A DNA stretch of 23,694 nucleotides, taken from the IMG/VR virus record IMGVR_UViG_3300049597_000526, positions 1-23,694 of that record; one strand, given 5' to 3'. Source of the stretch: a virus. Both the position numbers and the translations under genes were made by a program. Under the pieces are notes generated by a model that ran no database searches, was not told the origin of the DNA, and saw only the letters and a program-made list of their open reading frames with translations. Of this stretch, positions 2,665-23,200 are shown one piece after another (the stretch's first letter is position 1; every line of letters starts with the position of its first letter).

Positions 2665-3456
2665 ATGACAATCGGTAAATTATACGACACTATTAAAGGC
2701 GTTGCTAATTTAAAGTTAACTCGTCTATCTGATGGTGCATTATTACATCTACCTACTCCAACTGGATTTGTAATTGATAACAATATTGAAGAAAAGATTC
2801 AAACAACTCAAAATAACCAGGGTGAAATGACTCGTTCTGGTAGTTACATTACTGGACGTATGCCAGTTCTGCGAGTTGTCTATTCCTATATGCAACCAGA
2901 GATCCTGCAATTTAAAATTGGCAATCAATTTGATGCTAAGACTGGCACATTAGATGTAGTTAAGAGTTATCAAGTAACTCAGAATAACTATGCGGCAGTT
3001 ACAACTGGTTTTCTAGGTTATGGTGTTGCACTTAACGCTCCTAGTAAAGCATCTGTTCAACGTAATAATCTCTCAGTTCAATTAACTCAAGTTAGTATTG
3101 CGAGTTTTAGTGCAACTACAGATGATACATTTGCAGTTGGAGCATCTCTCAATGTTAAGTTCTCTAATAATCTCGTTACCGCAAATGAAACAGTTAGTTT
3201 AACTACAACTGAAACATTTACTGGAACTGGTATTAGTGATAACGTAGTTGGCGCACATAAAGTTAGTGCATTACTAATTACGAAGGCTAATAAAGTAATT
3301 CACTTTAAATGTGATAACGTAACACCTAGTTACGCGGGATCTACACTTGATCCGAAGGCAGATGCAATTGAAATACCATTCTTCATTAATGATGTTCCAG
3401 GTGTCTGTTTCCCTTATGAATGGAATTATGTACCTATTCAAGTTGGTTGTAACTAA
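2665..3456 (+). CDS. Major tail tube protein candidate
   Basis: A 263-residue, beta-rich protein (Thr, Ser, Val, Asn) located immediately before the tail assembly chaperone pair, the normal place for the major tail tube protein that stacks into hexameric rings around the tape measure. Two beta-rich halves are visible: residues 1-120, and residues 120-263, which end with a long patch of short strands. No sheath-like gene lies between it and the chaperones, arguing for a non-contractile tail. A short 8-residue spacer separates its ATG from the upstream stop. The assignment is positional plus composition. Confidence 0.6.
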   Translation: MTIGKLYDTIKGVANLKLTRLSDGALLHLPTPTGFVIDNNIEEKIQTTQNNQGEMTRSGSYITGRMPVLRVVYSYMQPEILQFKIGNQFDAKTGTLDVVKSYQVTQNNYAAVTTGFLGYGVALNAPSKASVQRNNLSVQLTQVSIASFSATTDDTFAVGASLNVKFSNNLVTANETVSLTTTETFTGTGISDNVVGAHKVSALLITKANKVIHFKCDNVTPSYAGSTLDPKADAIEIPFFINDVPGVCFPYEWNYVPIQVGCN

Positions 3457-11170: not shown

Positions 11171-11794
11171 ATGTATCAATTTAGTATTTCAATTCCTCTA
11201 ATTAAATGTTACGTTCGCAATGAATATCTATTTAACTTAGAATCTGGTTATGGTGAATTTACTCCAGTTGTTGTGTTCGGGTTAACTAGTTTAACTGGAC
11301 GTGCAATTGGATTTCACATAATGACTAATGGTGGCGCACAAATAGCACGAGTTCCAATTAGTGCATTAGTTAGTAGAGTTGATGCAAATAACTTAAATCT
11401 TGATTGGTTACAATTATGGGATTGTTTCAGTTATCAAACTCAAGTTGTTTCTTACGATTATCTGAAGGAAATGAAATGTAAGGTTCTACTTAAAGATAAG
11501 AACTGGTATCAAGGTGAATATGTATTTACTATTGATTGGATAGGTGGTGATTGGGCAGAAGAAGCTAGTGATTATAAATGTGGACATCTAATTAAATTAG
11601 ATAATGGATGTTATGCAATTCAACCTAATAATCGTATCTATTGGTTAGGTGATCCATCATTCATAACAGAACCATTAACTGAGTTTCCTGGTTATAAGAT
11701 TAATACTCATAATTGGAAGTGCGAGAATCAAGATAAATGGGTAACTGAGAATACAGATAATTATTTTTATCATATTGACAAAGTTGAAGAATAG
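11171..11794 (+). CDS. Conserved phage protein of unknown function (LQLWDCF family)
   Basis: A 207-residue protein starting MYQFSISIPLIKCYV, with hallmark stretches LQLWDCFSY (about residues 80-88), GEYVFTIDW (about 116-124), HLIKLDNGCYAIQPNNRI (about 140-157) and a following W-x-DPS. I associate this pattern with a conserved protein of unknown function in aquatic phages, recalled rather than searched. Aromatic-rich and probably beta-structured, soluble, no signal peptide. AGGA at 11158-11161 supports the ATG at 11171. Its 3' end contains the promoter of the RNA unit that follows. Confidence 0.75.
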   Translation: MYQFSISIPLIKCYVRNEYLFNLESGYGEFTPVVVFGLTSLTGRAIGFHIMTNGGAQIARVPISALVSRVDANNLNLDWLQLWDCFSYQTQVVSYDYLKEMKCKVLLKDKNWYQGEYVFTIDWIGGDWAEEASDYKCGHLIKLDNGCYAIQPNNRIYWLGDPSFITEPLTEFPGYKINTHNWKCENQDKWVTENTDNYFYHIDKVEE

Positions 11795-12142: not shown

Positions 12143-12997
12143 ATGAGTGAGATAACTTACGCACAATCTTATATTGGTGAAGATGATATTGAATTGTATG
12201 TAACTAACGATGGTAAAGTTACAGGAGTTAGTCTATCAGGACTTGCTAAATTATGTGGTGTAACTAGAAAAGCAATAAGTCAAGTTACTAACAGCTTAAC
12301 AGCACCCGGAACGAATACATACCCGAAATCGCTAGAACCCTTAGCTGGTAAGGTTTTTAACCCGGAAGTAACTGGAGAACGAGGTGCAAAAATAGTAATG
12401 GAAGATGTTGCAATTAGAATAGTTGAGTATTACGCTTATGAATCTAGAGTTAAAACAGATGTAGCTAAAACTAATTTTCGTTTGTTAGCACAGAAAGGTT
12501 TAAATGCTTATATTAAAGAACTTACACCAACTGATAATGTAACATCAGTTAACTTAAATGACATTCAGAATACATTAACTCAACTTCTATTAAAGGTAGA
12601 TGAGAATAATAAACAACTACTTGAGAATCAACAGATAGTAGTTGAATATAAACAACTTAGAAATACAACAGTTACTATTATTCCAGGAGTAGATAAATTA
12701 TTAAACGATTATTTAGAATTAGATAGTGATTTAACATTAACATCTAGTGATAGAATACCTTTAACTAAATGGTTAGAAGTTGAGAAAGGTTGTACATTAG
12801 ATAGAAAAACACTACATAAGTTAGCTCACTTAGTTAGTGGTGCTTATAAGTCAACCACAAATAAAGAACCAGTTAGAGGTACATTTGTTAAACGTATTGT
12901 TAATGGTAAGAAAAAAGTACAAGCTAATACTTGTTTATATTCGTCAGATGAATTTCCAATATTAGAGATGGCATTTAATAATTTAATGGGGGTTTAA
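12143..12997 (+). CDS. HTH / antirepressor-like regulatory protein
   Basis: A 284-residue protein with a probable helix-turn-helix at residues 29-53 (VSLSGLAKLCGVTRKAISQV). A middle segment (VMEDVAIRIVEYYAYES, then NFRLLAQKGLNAYI) resembles phage antirepressor-type proteins seen in cyanobacterial genomes. A short coiled coil follows at about 137-176. The distinct C-terminal domain (residues 180-284) is rich in charged residues, with a patch KRIVNGKKKVQANTC. AAGG eight bases before the ATG is a good ribosome site. With its own promoter and an adjacent terminator it looks like an independent regulatory cassette inserted in tail genes. DNA binding is inferred, the target unknown. Confidence 0.6.
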   Translation: MSEITYAQSYIGEDDIELYVTNDGKVTGVSLSGLAKLCGVTRKAISQVTNSLTAPGTNTYPKSLEPLAGKVFNPEVTGERGAKIVMEDVAIRIVEYYAYESRVKTDVAKTNFRLLAQKGLNAYIKELTPTDNVTSVNLNDIQNTLTQLLLKVDENNKQLLENQQIVVEYKQLRNTTVTIIPGVDKLLNDYLELDSDLTLTSSDRIPLTKWLEVEKGCTLDRKTLHKLAHLVSGAYKSTTNKEPVRGTFVKRIVNGKKKVQANTCLYSSDEFPILEMAFNNLMGV

Positions 12998-13000
12998 GTT

Positions 13001-13387
13001 ATGAATAATCAATTAGTTAAGTTAAGTAAAAAAAATAATATAGTAGCGGCATTTATTGAACATTACAAATTAGGATTAATAGATTACAATGTAATGCTAA
13101 AACAACTAACGTTAACTTTATGGGAAGTTACAAACACATTAATTGATGAATTTAAGTTACGTAAAGTAATTGATCCAATTCAATTAGTTAAATTAGATGA
13201 TGTTCAAATTGAGTTAGAATACCTCTACTTAATTAACTACATTCAACCTCATTTAGAATGTTTAGCTATCTATATGAAATCACATGAGGTAGAAGTAAAC
13301 ACAATTAAAAGTTATATTATTAATAACGATAACTTAAATGAAGTTAATATTGATGATATAACTATGTTAAATAACTTACTATTTTAA
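13001..13387 (+). CDS. Hypothetical protein in regulator cassette
   Basis: A 128-residue helical protein, rich in Leu, Ile, Asn and Glu/Asp, without a motif I recognise. It starts three bases after the HTH gene's stop, with GGGGG 12-16 bases ahead, so the two are almost certainly cotranscribed. It might be a partner of the regulator; no direct evidence. Residues 60-95 form an amphipathic stretch (VQIELEYLYLINYIQPHL). No signal peptide or membrane segment. Confidence 0.7.
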   Translation: MNNQLVKLSKKNNIVAAFIEHYKLGLIDYNVMLKQLTLTLWEVTNTLIDEFKLRKVIDPIQLVKLDDVQIELEYLYLINYIQPHLECLAIYMKSHEVEVNTIKSYIINNDNLNEVNIDDITMLNNLLF

Positions 13388-13531: not shown

Positions 13532-13567
13532 AATAAATCCACTAGCAATTAAGTTAGTGGATTTATT
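13532..13567. terminator. Bidirectional terminator between convergent operons
   Basis: A perfect 13-bp inverted repeat (AATAAATCCACTA / TAGTGGATTTATT) with a 10-base loop lies between the 3' end of the plus-strand regulator cassette and the 3' end of the minus-strand stress operon. T-rich flanks are present on either strand, so it can stop transcription from both sides. Confidence 0.75.
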
Positions 13568-13573
13568 AGTATG

Positions 13574-13645
13574 TTATTTATCTCGTCTGTTAAGCTTCGC
13601 CATTAACAATAGATAAACTAATCTAGATATGCCATTATATCTCAT
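13574..13645 (-). CDS. Possible 23-residue peptide, last cistron of minus operon
   Basis: A very short frame (MRYNGISRLVYLLLMAKLNR then RDK) whose ATG overlaps the previous cistron's stop in ATGA, the same coupling used throughout this operon. It ends just before the terminator hairpin. It is basic with a hydrophobic centre. Coding status is uncertain because of its length; coupling and position are the only support. Confidence 0.3.
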   Translation of the reverse strand: MRYNGISRLVYLLLMAKLNRRDK

Positions 13646-13821
13646 ACGTAACTAACTCTAACTATCTCACAGTTAACATATCTACTTTTAATTACATTAC
13701 CAGCTAACTGATGATTACACTTCTCACGATTAACAGTTACATTAACTAACTCATTAGCACCAATACACCAATGTCCATCTGATTTAAGATAGTTAAATTT
13801 AACATCATATTGTTCAATCAT
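13642..13821 (-). CDS. Small Cys/His-containing protein downstream of Dps
   Basis: A 59-residue protein beginning at an ATG that overlaps the Dps stop in ATGA. It contains H17-W18-C19, C35-N-H37 and C51, a spacing that could bind a metal ion, though it does not match a zinc-ribbon I know. Codon use is like its neighbours. It lies in a stretch that would otherwise be about 240 bases of empty sequence. Co-expression with a ferritin-like protein makes a metal-related role conceivable, but that is speculation. Confidence 0.6.
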   Translation of the reverse strand: MIEQYDVKFNYLKSDGHWCIGANELVNVTVNREKCNHQLAGNVIKSRYVNCEIVRVSYV

Positions 13822-14357
13822 TGCAAGTGCTTCTCTATTAAATAAACAAACTTAATTAACGTAGCTGCTAATTCTAATAATGTATTAGCATTAACTCTAT
13901 CACCATTATCATCTAAATCATTACTACAATCAGTAACTTCTTTAATAACGTAAGAAAATAGAGTAGCTAGTTTAGTGAGACATTCATTACTATCACTACA
14001 ACAACTGATAATATCAACGTTAGATAACTCAGTTGTATTACAACTAATAGTAGCATTACCTCCAAATGCTACTATAACTTCAGCAATAACATCAACATAA
14101 CTATCTAACTCACTTTGAATATCATCTAACATACTATGAACTGCTTTAAAGTTCATACCTTTAATGTTCCAATGACTTATTCTAGTTAAGTTACGTAAAT
14201 CAAACAGTAGATTAAGTAACTCACTTAACTTAGTTACAGAATGGGTGCGGATCTCAGGACTAATTAATAAACTAGTTACATTAGGAGTATTAGTAACTGT
14301 AGTTGCTGCAAATGTAGATAATCTTCTGTTAGCTAATGCTTCTTTAATCTTATTCAT
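13818..14357 (-). CDS. dps: Dps-family ferritin-like DNA protection protein
   Basis: A 179-residue protein with the complete Dps signature: HWNIKG (H62), NFKAVHSMLDD (H74, D78) and a following helix with D89 and E93 before FGG. These five residues match the inter-subunit ferroxidase ligands of E. coli Dps (H51, H63, D67, D78, E82). The N-terminal 40 residues are basic and Ser/Thr-rich like a DNA-binding Dps tail. The C-terminal helices are present, so it is full length. Dps forms 12-subunit shells that oxidise Fe(II) with peroxide and coat DNA. It is coupled by ATGA overlaps to the MazG-like gene and to the 59-residue gene. Several Cys (C106, C119, C120, C125, C143) are uncommon in Dps. An active ferroxidase is inferred from intact ligands. 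Confidence 0.88.
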   Translation of the reverse strand: MNKIKEALANRRLSTFAATTVTNTPNVTSLLISPEIRTHSVTKLSELLNLLFDLRNLTRISHWNIKGMNFKAVHSMLDDIQSELDSYVDVIAEVIVAFGGNATISCNTTELSNVDIISCCSDSNECLTKLATLFSYVIKEVTDCSNDLDDNGDRVNANTLLELAATLIKFVYLIEKHLQ

Positions 14358-14833
14358 CTATTGTCACCACTACCTTTTAATGTGTTGTTTACATCACGTT
14401 TAGTTAACTTAGCTACGTTAATCTCAATTAACTCTTCTGTAGTTAAATTAAGTTGTTTTAATTCATTTATTATAAAGTCATGATAACTAAGCAGTGTAAA
14501 TACACAATCAGTTGTATTATTATCACCTCTATATAGTCGCTTTAAAAATCCCGCTAACTGCAATGATAATTCACTAACTGATAATAAATTATCAAACTCA
14601 AATTTTAAAGCTGATTTTAATGGAGGAAATCCTACTTTATTTAAAGCTAATACTAAATAAGCTAGTACGTCACCTAACTCTTTTTTCTTACTTAACTCAT
14701 CATCTGCTAAATTATATTCATTAAGTTCTTCTATTAATCCTGCAATATAAACAGTCAATTTGCTTCGCTCATCTGCAATTGCATACTTATTACTAAATTC
14801 AATTAACCAAGTTGAGTATTCATTTAAGTTCAT
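14354..14833 (-). CDS. MazG-like nucleotide pyrophosphohydrolase
   Basis: A 159-residue all-alpha NTP pyrophosphatase candidate. The metal-binding MazG pattern is visible as E36-x-x-E39 (GLIEELNEY) and E52-x-x-D55 (KKELGDVLAYLV), followed by a C-terminal NVAKLTKR motif typical of MazG proteins. Such enzymes hydrolyse (d)NTPs to NMPs plus pyrophosphate. In phages MazG has been linked to control of nucleotide pools or host alarmones. The gene overlaps the ClpP-like gene upstream and dps downstream by ATGA, so the three are made together. Which substrate it uses cannot be told from sequence. Confidence 0.82.
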   Translation of the reverse strand: MNLNEYSTWLIEFSNKYAIADERSKLTVYIAGLIEELNEYNLADDELSKKKELGDVLAYLVLALNKVGFPPLKSALKFEFDNLLSVSELSLQLAGFLKRLYRGDNNTTDCVFTLLSYHDFIINELKQLNLTTEELIEINVAKLTKRDVNNTLKGSGDNR

Positions 14834-15336
14834 ATAATTTCACTAATAAGTCCTAATTCTAAAGCTTGTTGTGCAGTTAAATATGTATCTTTCAACATCA
14901 TATTGCTAGTTAACTTAGTGTCTTTATAACACTCCATACAATATGACTCTAATTTATCCCACCAATCAATTACATTCTTAGTTCCAGTTAAATCATGCTT
15001 AATACTACCTCTTAATTCATGTACCATAAATGTTGTATAACTACTACACTTACTAGTAGCTGCACATAATAATAATGTACCACCACTAGCTACATAACCT
15101 TCTGCAATAATAGTTATATTAAGTGAACTACGTTTAATAACTTCATACATCTTAAGTGAACTAGTTACACATCCACCATAACAATCTAGATAAATAGTAA
15201 TTGATTTATCAGCAGATGATTTTAAATTAGATTCTAATTCACGCAATAGATAAACAAACTTAGTTGATGATAAGTTATTAATGTTTCCAGTAAAATATAA
15301 ATCAGTACCTTTATAGAAGCATTCAAATTCGGACAT
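14830..15336 (-). CDS. clpP: ClpP-type serine protease
   Basis: A 168-residue ClpP/crotonase-fold protease. Motifs in order: IYLDCYGGCVTSSLKMYEVI (substrate-binding GG region), AEGYVASGGTLLL with nucleophile S84, FMVHELRG with H106, and LKDTYLTAQQALELGLI with D150, giving an intact Ser-His-Asp triad. It is shorter than bacterial ClpP (about 195-205 residues) with a reduced N-terminus. Phage ClpP-like proteases often act as prohead maturation proteases beside capsid genes. This one instead sits in an operon with MazG and Dps, so a role with host Clp ATPases is possible. The start is the ATG at 15336; no good Shine-Dalgarno is seen. Confidence 0.85.
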   Translation of the reverse strand: MSEFECFYKGTDLYFTGNINNLSSTKFVYLLRELESNLKSSADKSITIYLDCYGGCVTSSLKMYEVIKRSSLNITIIAEGYVASGGTLLLCAATSKCSSYTTFMVHELRGSIKHDLTGTKNVIDWWDKLESYCMECYKDTKLTSNMMLKDTYLTAQQALELGLISEII

Positions 15337-20265: not shown

Positions 20266-23200
20266 ATGACAACAACCTATAGTTCGGGTAAATTACAACT
20301 TACATTTAATTCAGGTAATGTATCTGTAGTTAATGGTTCAGGTAACTTAGGAGTTACAGGAACTTACTATATCTCTATTCAAGGTCGGAATCTAATTGGA
20401 CTTAATCTGAATAGTACATTAGTTCCAGTTACTTTAACTACAACATCTACATTAACTATAACATTACCATCATTAGCTAGTGGTGAAACTTGGTCTGACA
20501 TAGTTATATCAGCATCAACTACTAATAACGTATCTGCCTTAACTCAAGTAATGGTAGTTAATAGTGCTGATTTTAATTCGCCAGTTATATTAACTAGTGT
20601 TGAGTTGTTCAAGCTAACTACACTTGCTCGTACTGTAGCTAACTCTGCTGCATTACCAGCAACACCAATTCAGGGACTTATAAGATACATAACTAACCTC
20701 AACTACTACTATGAATACGATGAATACAGTACAGCAACTGTAGATAACTTAACTGTATTAACTGCAACTACTGGTAGATGGCTTAGAGTAGGTGCAATTA
20801 GTACGTATATAACTGATACTACAGCTACAGATGGATGTGATCAAGATGTTCGCACACCTAATCTAATTGTTAATGCACCATCATATACTTGTGATGGTAG
20901 TAAAGGTGATGGAGTTACCTTCTGGTTACGTAATGAATTTAGCACTATTATTTCAAGTGGAACTAGAATTAGTTGTACTGTGCGATTATTTGAGGAAGAT
21001 AAATCTCAATTGTTCGATAGTCTCCTAATACTAGAACTACTTGGTTATGTTAATTTAATAACTGGAGTATTAGATGCTTCAGTTAGTAGTGGTGAAGTAA
21101 CTTATCAACCTCGTAGTCAATGGTTAACATTACCAGAGGATCTCGACATTGGTTATGCTGCTGTAGTTAGAGTTAGTCCTAAATTCACCATTACTGATTT
21201 AGATAACAATGTTCCATATCTAGCTAACTTAACTACATACGTTACATTTGCTCCAACTAGCGGTATCTATACTCCTGGTGTATTCGGCAACTTAATTTAC
21301 AACGAATATGATAAGTGGCGCATTTATTCTGATGTTGGACTTAGTGTAATTAAGAGTAAGGGTAGTGGAATAGTTAATAATTATGAACTTAATGATATAT
21401 CCGCCGAAACTATAACAGGGTTAAGTTCTAATACCGCCAACCAGTATATTTTTCTTACTAGTAATGGTACTTCGTTCGCATCAACTACTAGTTCATTCGT
21501 TAGTGCAGTTAAGCGATGTGTAGTTAGTACAGTTAATGGTATAGGAACTCCAGTTAGTTATGGTAGCTTCGCGTTAAATAACACTAAGAAGTTATCTGTA
21601 ACTGTTAATTATCCAACTAGTGTTAGAAGTAATTATCCTGATGCTCTTATTGCAGGTTCTAGTAAAGGTAAGTTTAATGCAACTAATGTTGTTATCTATA
21701 TTAAGAATAGTAGTAATGCCGTATTCGTAACTGAAGTTAACATAACTCCATCTGCTAGTAATGATGTTTATGTACTTAATTATAGTGACTTTACTAGTTC
21801 TACATTAGCAACACCATCTAGTAATTATGGTTTATATACACCATTAAGTGTAACTACTTCAACTCCATCTAACAGTAGTACATTTCCTACTGGTAGTTAT
21901 GAAGTGTTTGTTGCATTTAAATACACTGGAGTTGTTACAGTTATTGATCATAGTGTTAGTGAGTTATATGAGATAACAAGTAACCTGAGTGAGTTATTCT
22001 CAACTAGTGCAACAGTATGGTATAGCGATAATGGTGTTCCTAGTAGTTTAATTGGTGAAGATGGTTCATATTATCTTAATTATGATAATGCTAATATTTA
22101 TAAGAAGGTTAATGATACTTGGAGTTTAGATGGAAATATTAGTGTTATTTCACCTTCATTTACTACTATTGCAGTTAGTGGACAAAGTAATGTAGTTGCA
22201 GATCAAACTAATGATAGTTTAACTCTAGTTGCAGGAACTGGTATTACATTAACTACTAATGCCACAACCGATGCTATTACTATTACTGGAACTAGCGTCA
22301 CTAATACATTTAGTACAATAACTGTAGCTGGACAACCTGATCTAGTTGCTGATAATGGAACTGATACATTAACTATTGCTGCTGGTAGTGGTATTACCTT
22401 AACTACAAATTCTGCAACTGATACATTAACTATCGCAGGAACTGCTGTTAGTAATACTTTTAGTACAATTGCAGTTAGTGGTCAATCTGATGTAGTAGCT
22501 GATAGTGCCAGTGATACTATTACGTTAGTTGCTGGAACTGGAATGACTATTACAACTAACACCACTACAGATACTATTACTTTTGAAAGTAGTGGTGTTA
22601 ATGTTGATGTTACGCGAACTTCTACAATGTCTAATAGTATTGGAACTGGTAGTAAGACGTTTACTTATACTGCTAGTTCTAACTTAGGATGGTTAGTTAG
22701 TACGAGATTGCGTGCTGCGTATGATGTTTCTAACTATATGGAAGGTGTAGTTACTGCTGTTAGTAGTACCTCAGTTACTATTACATCAGATAATGCAGTT
22801 GGTAGTGGAACTTATACTAGTTGGAACATAACAATAGCTGGAGATAAAGGTTCTACTGGAAGTGCTGGTAGTTTAAATGCCGCATCTGGATTTATATTAA
22901 CTCCTGTTGGAAGTCCCATTACTACATCAACTAACGAAGTTGGTTTCTATGTCGATAGCACTGATAACTTATTTAAAACTAGAGACGTTAATAATGGTAC
23001 AGTTAGAACATTAGCATCATTAAATAGAGTTCAAGCATTTACTCAAACACAATATGCTACACCTGTTATTAATAATTCTGCTACTGGGACAGTAACTTTA
23101 GACGGTAGTGCTAGTAATGTTTTCATACTAACTCTAACTGGAAACCTGACTCTGACCATGAACAACATTCAAGTTGGAGCAACTTATATCATCTACTTAA

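Follow-up and report, generated by a model that had tools for sequence, protein, structure and literature searches.

We found that a 23,694-base virus record, analyzed over its full length and referred to here as the window, encodes at positions 13818-14357 what is, by the sequence and fold tests that we ran other than the curated cut-off of the NCBIfam equivalog and one weak signature pattern, a canonical Dps. The protein is probably an accessory, canonical ferroxidase mini-ferritin that would remove Fe2+ and H2O2 during infection of what is probably a filamentous cyanobacterium. Both this kind of protein and the presence of its genes in phages were known before. Most notable among the new findings are that near-identical phages carry a naturally truncated copy, that the closest relatives form a sister group from phages, and that an Arg and an Asp, a pair conserved elsewhere, have been lost together.

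The dps gene, its predicted fold and its ferroxidase residues

Dps mini-ferritins are small cages that sequester iron and lessen peroxide damage. They have the four-helix ferritin fold without a fifth C-terminal helix, and a short BC helix is their hallmark. The gene and the codons of the ferroxidase ligands, placed by alignment, are as follows.

13818-14357, minus strand: dps gene, 179 amino acids, ATG start, uninterrupted frame; canonical Dps mini-ferritin with a basic N-terminal tail longer than that of its relatives
14172-14174, minus strand: codon of ligand H62 (E. coli H51); two shortened sister copies end directly after it
14136-14138, minus strand: codon of ligand H74 (E. coli H63)
14124-14126, minus strand: codon of ligand D78 (E. 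coli D67)
14091-14093, minus strand: codon of ligand D89 (E. coli D78)
14079-14081, minus strand: codon of ligand E93 (E. coli E82)

The Dps identity put forward in a preliminary description of this DNA was borne out by protein families, by the closest crystal structure and by the predicted fold. Pfam Ferritin (PF00210) matched with 51.4 bits (E 1.5e-13), above its gathering cut-off of 24.5 bits, phrog_3636 matched with an E value of 3.4e-19, and the top PDB sequence match was Brucella Dps 3ge4 (E 4.1e-15). The NCBIfam Dps equivalog NF006975 (PRK09448) was also matched (83.6 bits, E 1.6e-23), below its curated cut-off of 114, so that the equivalog was not assignable. These scores place the protein clearly within the family, as a diverged member. 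The AlphaFold2 single-chain model had a mean pLDDT of 90.3 and a pTM of 0.81. It contained helices at residues 34-64, 70-97, 110-113, 123-150 and 154-178, so that a short BC helix accompanies the four-helix fold and a fifth helix at the C terminus is absent, and the helices before and after the ligands were intact, as had been claimed. When the model was compared with the crystal structures of Brucella, Agrobacterium and E. coli Dps, a check that had been proposed beforehand, it matched all of them (Z ~22, 1.3-1.5 A, 150-154 residues), with a Z of 22.6 against 3ge4.

All five ligands assigned earlier to the E. coli ferroxidase site were found there. Residues 62, 74, 78, 89 and 93 correspond to positions 51, 63, 67, 78 and 82 of an enterobacterial reference row (L016), taken from a phage-collection record that is probably host DNA, and the five columns were invariant in a 39-row Dps alignment. 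Because this reference gave no match by megablast against E. coli genomes, the E. coli numbering is based on the alignment with E. coli Dps 8pv9, which has no gaps across the ligand stretch. In a wider alignment, 93 of 95 rows, the window counted, had the complete five-ligand set. The canonical Dps center is described as composed of two His and one Asp from one chain and an Asp and a Glu from the other, and the His-type cyanobacterial Dps NpDps4 as having His at 78 and Asn at 67 in E. coli numbering (PMC6675082). The His-type signature of NpDps4 and TeDpsA was absent from the window Dps, which has Asp at both 67 and 78. Judged from these residues, its ferroxidase site is of the canonical type and not of the His type. 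The agreement with Dps as a whole greatly exceeds what chance would produce.

Residue 94 is Val in the window Dps, while 93 of the 94 other rows of the 95-row set have Arg, and residue 168 is Ile, while 91 of 94 have Asp. These two residues may form a salt bridge in other Dps. Among 14 phage rows compared (window included), R94 was missing in three, namely the window, L228 and cyanophage S-SRM01, and D168 was missing in the same three; D168 alone was missing in two phage rows of the 95-row set. The second Dps signature pattern includes Glu-Arg and was not found in the window Dps, with V94 in place of the Arg, but this is a weak criterion because it was matched by just 28 of 51 Dps rows. Furthermore, the window Dps has five Cys (106, 119, 120, 126 and 144), whereas the median for the 94 other rows is 0. 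It has the most in the 95-row set, the runner-up being a Cronobacter phage Dps with four. The earlier remark that the extra cysteines are uncommon for Dps thus holds, even if some other phage Dps carry 3-4.

One could imagine from this that the cage was kept but repurposed, the Cys-rich BC-loop region and the altered Arg/Asp pair serving a new redox- or metal-dependent role. We regard such a change of role as very unlikely. A Cys content exceeding that of all 94 other rows, and an Arg and an Asp that changed together here as they did in L228 and S-SRM01, speak for it. Against this, the ferroxidase site is untouched, and the ClpP-like and phrog_3704 proteins encoded by the same phage are Cys-rich as well (7 and 6 Cys, respectively), so that the enrichment may partly be phage composition.

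The overlapping minus-strand genes and their state in sister contigs

The surroundings of the gene comprise the following features.

14830-15336, minus strand: ClpP-like serine protease gene, 168 amino acids (Pfam CLP_protease E 1.5e-17; phrog_94 head maturation protease E 1.6e-20)
14354-14833, minus strand: MazG-like gene, 159 amino acids, weak match (phrog_229 E 6.8e-6; Pfam MazG below cut-off); 4-base overlap with the dps start
13642-13821, minus strand: 59-amino-acid open reading frame (ORF); 4-base overlap with the dps stop; no NCBIfam match
13532-13567, no strand assigned: hairpin separating convergent plus-strand genes from the dps operon
13647-14172, no strand assigned: ~526 bp missing from sister contigs L006 and L007, which have ~5 bases instead; the stretch spans dps from codon 63 to codon 179 and almost the whole 59-amino-acid ORF

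The ClpP-like gene, the MazG-like gene, dps and the 59-amino-acid ORF form a minus-strand run of four in which every junction is a 4-base overlap. These ATGA overlaps argue for a single co-translated operon. The run is located downstream of the tape measure gene, amid tail genes and read against them, and since it is flanked by oppositely read tail genes, it looks like a self-contained accessory cassette. Read as minus-strand RNA, the downstream hairpin had a predicted energy of -15.1 kcal/mol (z -7.7), and none of 200 shuffles was equally stable. In a terminator scan it was terminator-like on the plus strand only, and its minus-strand tail is weakly T-rich by eye. Promoter-like sites were not in excess (21, versus 20.0 in shuffles). 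The phage context noted before is well founded: the source is a virus record with tail genes, and one sister contig of 111,623 bases carries a terminase and a ribonucleotide reductase with a B12-type (class II) domain.

The full dps gene was found in four other IMG/VR contigs, identical to the window at 540 of 540 bases, although these copies and the window may represent one population. L006 and L007, in contrast, retain only dps codons 1-62 and stop right after H62. The gene is thus intact in 5 of 7 copies (the window plus six other loci). Both truncated contigs retain the MazG-like gene and also the ClpP-like one, which in L007 runs into the contig end; L006 is 97.8-100% identical to the window across long shared stretches. 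The occurrence of identical full copies next to truncated sisters indicates that dps is accessory, and the absence of most of the gene in two sister contigs suggests that its benefit is not general. Because the Dps start is retained in L006 and L007, loss is a simpler reading than gain. The two remnants are identical to each other, and the truncations may be one event. In the truncated allele, codons 1-47 are identical to the window and six codons differ within 48-62, which makes recombination with a diverged allele likely.

The exchange is not restricted to dps. A 284-amino-acid gene (12143-12997) and a 128-amino-acid gene (13001-13387) had no match in L006 or L007, and at this stretch L006 bears a different, 276-amino-acid gene (L006:10353-11183), so that a variable slot lies between the tRNA and the dps operon. 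The 284-amino-acid gene weakly resembles a phage family of the BstA type (phrog_6287, E 8.2e-7). The MazG-like gene also varies between near-identical phages, being 87-88% identical in L004 and L005 and 100% identical in L002, unlike the adjacent dps, which shows no variation among full copies. Near-identical phages with and without a working dps represent a natural pair with which the role of a phage Dps could be tested, with the caveat that neighboring genes have been exchanged in the same stretch.

The truncation raises the question of whether the gene is a decaying passenger, useful in an ancestor and now close to neutral. The loss after codon 62 in L006 and L007 (identical remnants that may count as a single event), the R94V and D168I changes of the window copy and its very long branch would all fit. 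However, neither the five ligands nor any part of the fold has been lost at an identity of ~23-35% to bacterial Dps, which points to purifying selection over a long time; the reading frame is uninterrupted with its overlaps preserved, and the window and four contigs do not differ by one base, with the same reservation that they are possibly one population. Decay to near-neutrality is, in our opinion, unlikely.

Relatives, origin and a possible role in DNA compaction or the virion

The window Dps has ~23-35% identity to bacterial Dps, and the top-scoring among the best 80 bacterial loci were mostly cyanobacterial Dps (26-35%). Its end branch was extreme, with 4.34 changes per column in the 95-row tree and 7.7 in a 42-row tree. 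In the 95-row tree, from which L076 and L100 were dropped because their extracted frame was wrong, it stood weakly beside a bacterial MAG row, L061 (87/50). After addition of the phage Dps of L215, the closest relative found (40% identity), a 50-row tree joined the window to L215 (99/88) and then to L023 (99/98). The 42- and 50-row trees are chosen subsets, the latter without L096 and the Streptomyces, enterobacterial, Aeromonas, Lactobacillus and S-SRM01 phage Dps; the duplicate loci L220, L226 and L227 as well as L223-L225 were left out of the trees. A recent acquisition from the host was not supported, as the 95-row and 50-row trees place the window outside the cyanobacterial clade. AU tests nevertheless gave p values of 0.336 (42 rows) and 0.295 (50 rows) for the window joined to cyanobacteria and, with 42 rows, of 0.404 for the alpha/enterobacterial clade and 0.5 for L023 alone, so that each of these placements was neither favored nor rejected. 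The suggestion that phylogeny might date the acquisition therefore could not be followed: the branch is very long, and neither the trees nor the AU tests resolve a donor.

L215 (IMGVR_UViG_2909739949_000001) is a phage contig of 70,971 bases that encodes a Mu-type portal and a capsid E protein. Its dps is the first of three consecutive genes read in the direction opposite to the head genes. The window Dps is similar to it in that the two are 40% identical, sisters in the 50-row tree and encoded on the strand opposite to structural genes. However, L215 is a different type of phage, and its Dps keeps R94 and D168 and has neither Cys nor an N-terminal extension. Among its ORFs of at least 80 amino acids, called in 20-kb pieces, only Dps and one phrog_37791 protein matched the phage of the window. 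Canonical bacterial Dps (E. coli, Brucella 3ge4, Nostoc Dps1-3) share with the window Dps the five ligands, the four-helix bundle, the BC helix and an N-terminal tail, while R94V, D168I, the five Cys, the longer N terminus and the phage operon set the window apart.

A more elaborate and quite improbable proposal is that the window, L215 and L023 form a phage-adapted Dps lineage whose genes, in the window and L215, are cassettes transcribed on their own from the strand opposite to the structural genes. The window cage would have been retuned by the V94/I168 hydrophobic pair and the BC-loop Cys cluster, becoming redox sensitive and suited to a collapsing oxygen-producing host, with selection varying between near-identical phages.

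The position and the tail of the protein bear on another alternative, in which Dps uses this tail to attach to phage or host DNA and either condenses the host DNA or is packaged along with the phage genome, and iron chemistry is secondary. The N-terminal extension comprises 43 residues ahead of the residue-44 column (median 25 in 51 rows), with basic residues K3, K5, R11 and R12 and a predicted helix at 2-10. Additionally, a head-maturation-type ClpP-like protease is encoded two genes upstream of dps, the dps of L215 is surrounded by head genes, and some predicted viral Dps-fold proteins bear the name prohead protease. On the other side, residues 43-179 are acidic (pI 4.5), dps lies downstream of the tape measure gene against the tail genes and is truncated in two sister contigs, and the L215 gene is on the strand opposite to its head genes. 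A separate head-maturation-protease-like gene (phrog_976, E 3.3e-6) is located ~12 kb from the terminase of the sister contig; the idea that the ClpP-like neighbor is the phage's own prohead protease, with Dps packaged, was therefore unsupported. A primary role in DNA compaction or in the virion thus seems improbable to us. Virion packaging, one of the functions first listed for this gene, found no specific support, given a dispensable gene among oppositely read tail genes and a protein that is acidic after residue 42.

Probable host, proposed role and Dps in other phages

The phage of the window shows partial kinship to Aphanizomenon phage CL131. The phrog_3704 protein is 61% identical to that of CL131, the C terminus of the tail fiber is 81% identical across 158 amino acids, and both phages have the order tape measure, small ORF, phrog_3704, tRNA and ~290-amino-acid gene. 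This order is shared as gene types, since the tape measure and the ~290-amino-acid gene had no CL131 match in the comparison of sister-contig ORFs. An 887-amino-acid tail protein matched, in the phage collection, Nodularia phages only (9 of 9 records). Based on these four observations, the host is probably a filamentous (Nostocales) cyanobacterium. Against this host, only 11 of the 126 sister-contig ORFs had a match in CL131, and 4 in 2AV2 (first 50 kb); these are ORFs of at least 80 amino acids called in 20-kb pieces, with genes at piece ends, the phrog_3704 gene among them, uncounted.

Several proteins were rejected as host markers. The terminase matched 1426 records spanning many hosts and a 660-amino-acid protein matched 492. 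The tape measure was mixed and mainly pointed to Vibrio phages (19 of 23 records, the other 4 having cyanobacterial hosts), and a 263-amino-acid protein (2665-3456) gave zero matches in the host-marker search.

In such a host, we propose that the subunits assemble into a 12-subunit cage in which a pair of Fe2+ would be bound at each dimer interface by H62, H74 and D78 from one subunit together with D89 and E93 from its partner. The iron would be oxidized mainly with H2O2 and the ferric product stored inside the cage. Free iron and peroxide would be removed in this way while host photosynthesis and iron proteins fail, and phage DNA would thereby be spared. The basic N-terminal tail may add DNA binding, although not all Dps bind DNA, as the title of PDB 1o9r states. 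Canonical Nostoc Dps1-3 are reported to oxidize Fe2+ with H2O2 and not with O2 alone (PMC6675082), and NpDps2 to be critical for H2O2 tolerance (PMC6116882), which makes this biochemical role plausible in a cyanobacterium of this kind. The gene is of interest because the phage encoding it probably infects Nostocales, a group in which photosynthesis and nitrogen fixation both centrally involve iron and peroxide.

The rarity implied by the preliminary description was not supported. DPS has been reported in Gratiaviridae and 36 further gut phage genomes (Benler 2021, PMC8008677) and a Dps-like ferritin in Lactobacillus phages (Kyrkou 2019, PMC6669764). These resemble the window Dps as phage proteins for which a role in oxidative stress is proposed in both sources, but their hosts are gut anaerobes or lactobacilli and not oxygen-producing cyanobacteria, as we infer for the window. 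A cyanobacterial Dps bait matched 108 of 50,697 phage records, 95 of them Streptomyces phages, and the L023 bait matched 73, including Cronobacter, Proteus, Aeromonas, Salmonella and Lactobacillus phages; these phage-collection totals, like one of 14, include GenBank/RefSeq duplicates and records that are probably host DNA. Since phage Dps are both published and common in databases, the window Dps joins an already known class. Unannotated "phage" records with a bacterial-type Dps (for example OR851605, OR850242, OR845009 and OR848374) are probably host DNA; such suspected records, several of them short, are named Salmonella S.Kent, Staphylococcus SA, Listeria LM and Enterococcus.

A Dps is also annotated in the record of cyanophage S-SRM01. 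Like the window Dps, it belongs to a phage of a freshwater cyanobacterium. Unlike it, it is distant in sequence, has no N-terminal tail, has Gly at the D78 ligand and comes from a Kyanoviridae phage. Of 293 pattern-matching IMG/VR stretches, 292 were confirmed as carrying a Dps of the S-SRM01 type, and the best 80 were kept. In the one aligned member of this cyanomyovirus type (L122:4995-5429), Gly takes the place of the Asp67 ligand, and His/Gly that of the Arg/Asp pair. Judged by this member, the ferroxidase site may thus be incomplete in a viral Dps that is very common. No title or abstract among the matches listed in our literature search treats a cyanophage Dps, from which we claim no absence. 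The S-SRM01 paper (PMC8557907) does not contain the words Dps, starvation, ferritin, iron or oxidative, though the record annotates the gene, and the CL131 paper (PMC6293099) does not contain Dps or ferritin.

Three further observations were made. Proteins of uncultured phages named prohead protease in BFVD (for example A0A6J7WIS1, A0A6J7WPK9 and A0A6J7XDU5) matched the Dps fold, with E values up to 3e-4 and rmsd of 3.5-11.2; these predicted structures hint at capsid-associated Dps domains in other phages. The phrog_3704 gene of the window (11171-11794) is widespread, with 114 phage records, and carries conflicting labels, being named ferredoxin in PHROGs and PurM or phosphoribosylaminoimidazole synthetase in many cyanophage and pelagiphage records, so that its function looks unsettled. 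Finally, off-diagonal matches between the window and the sister contigs revealed ~75% identical internal repeats at 22157-22584, within a 1033-amino-acid tail-fiber-like gene.
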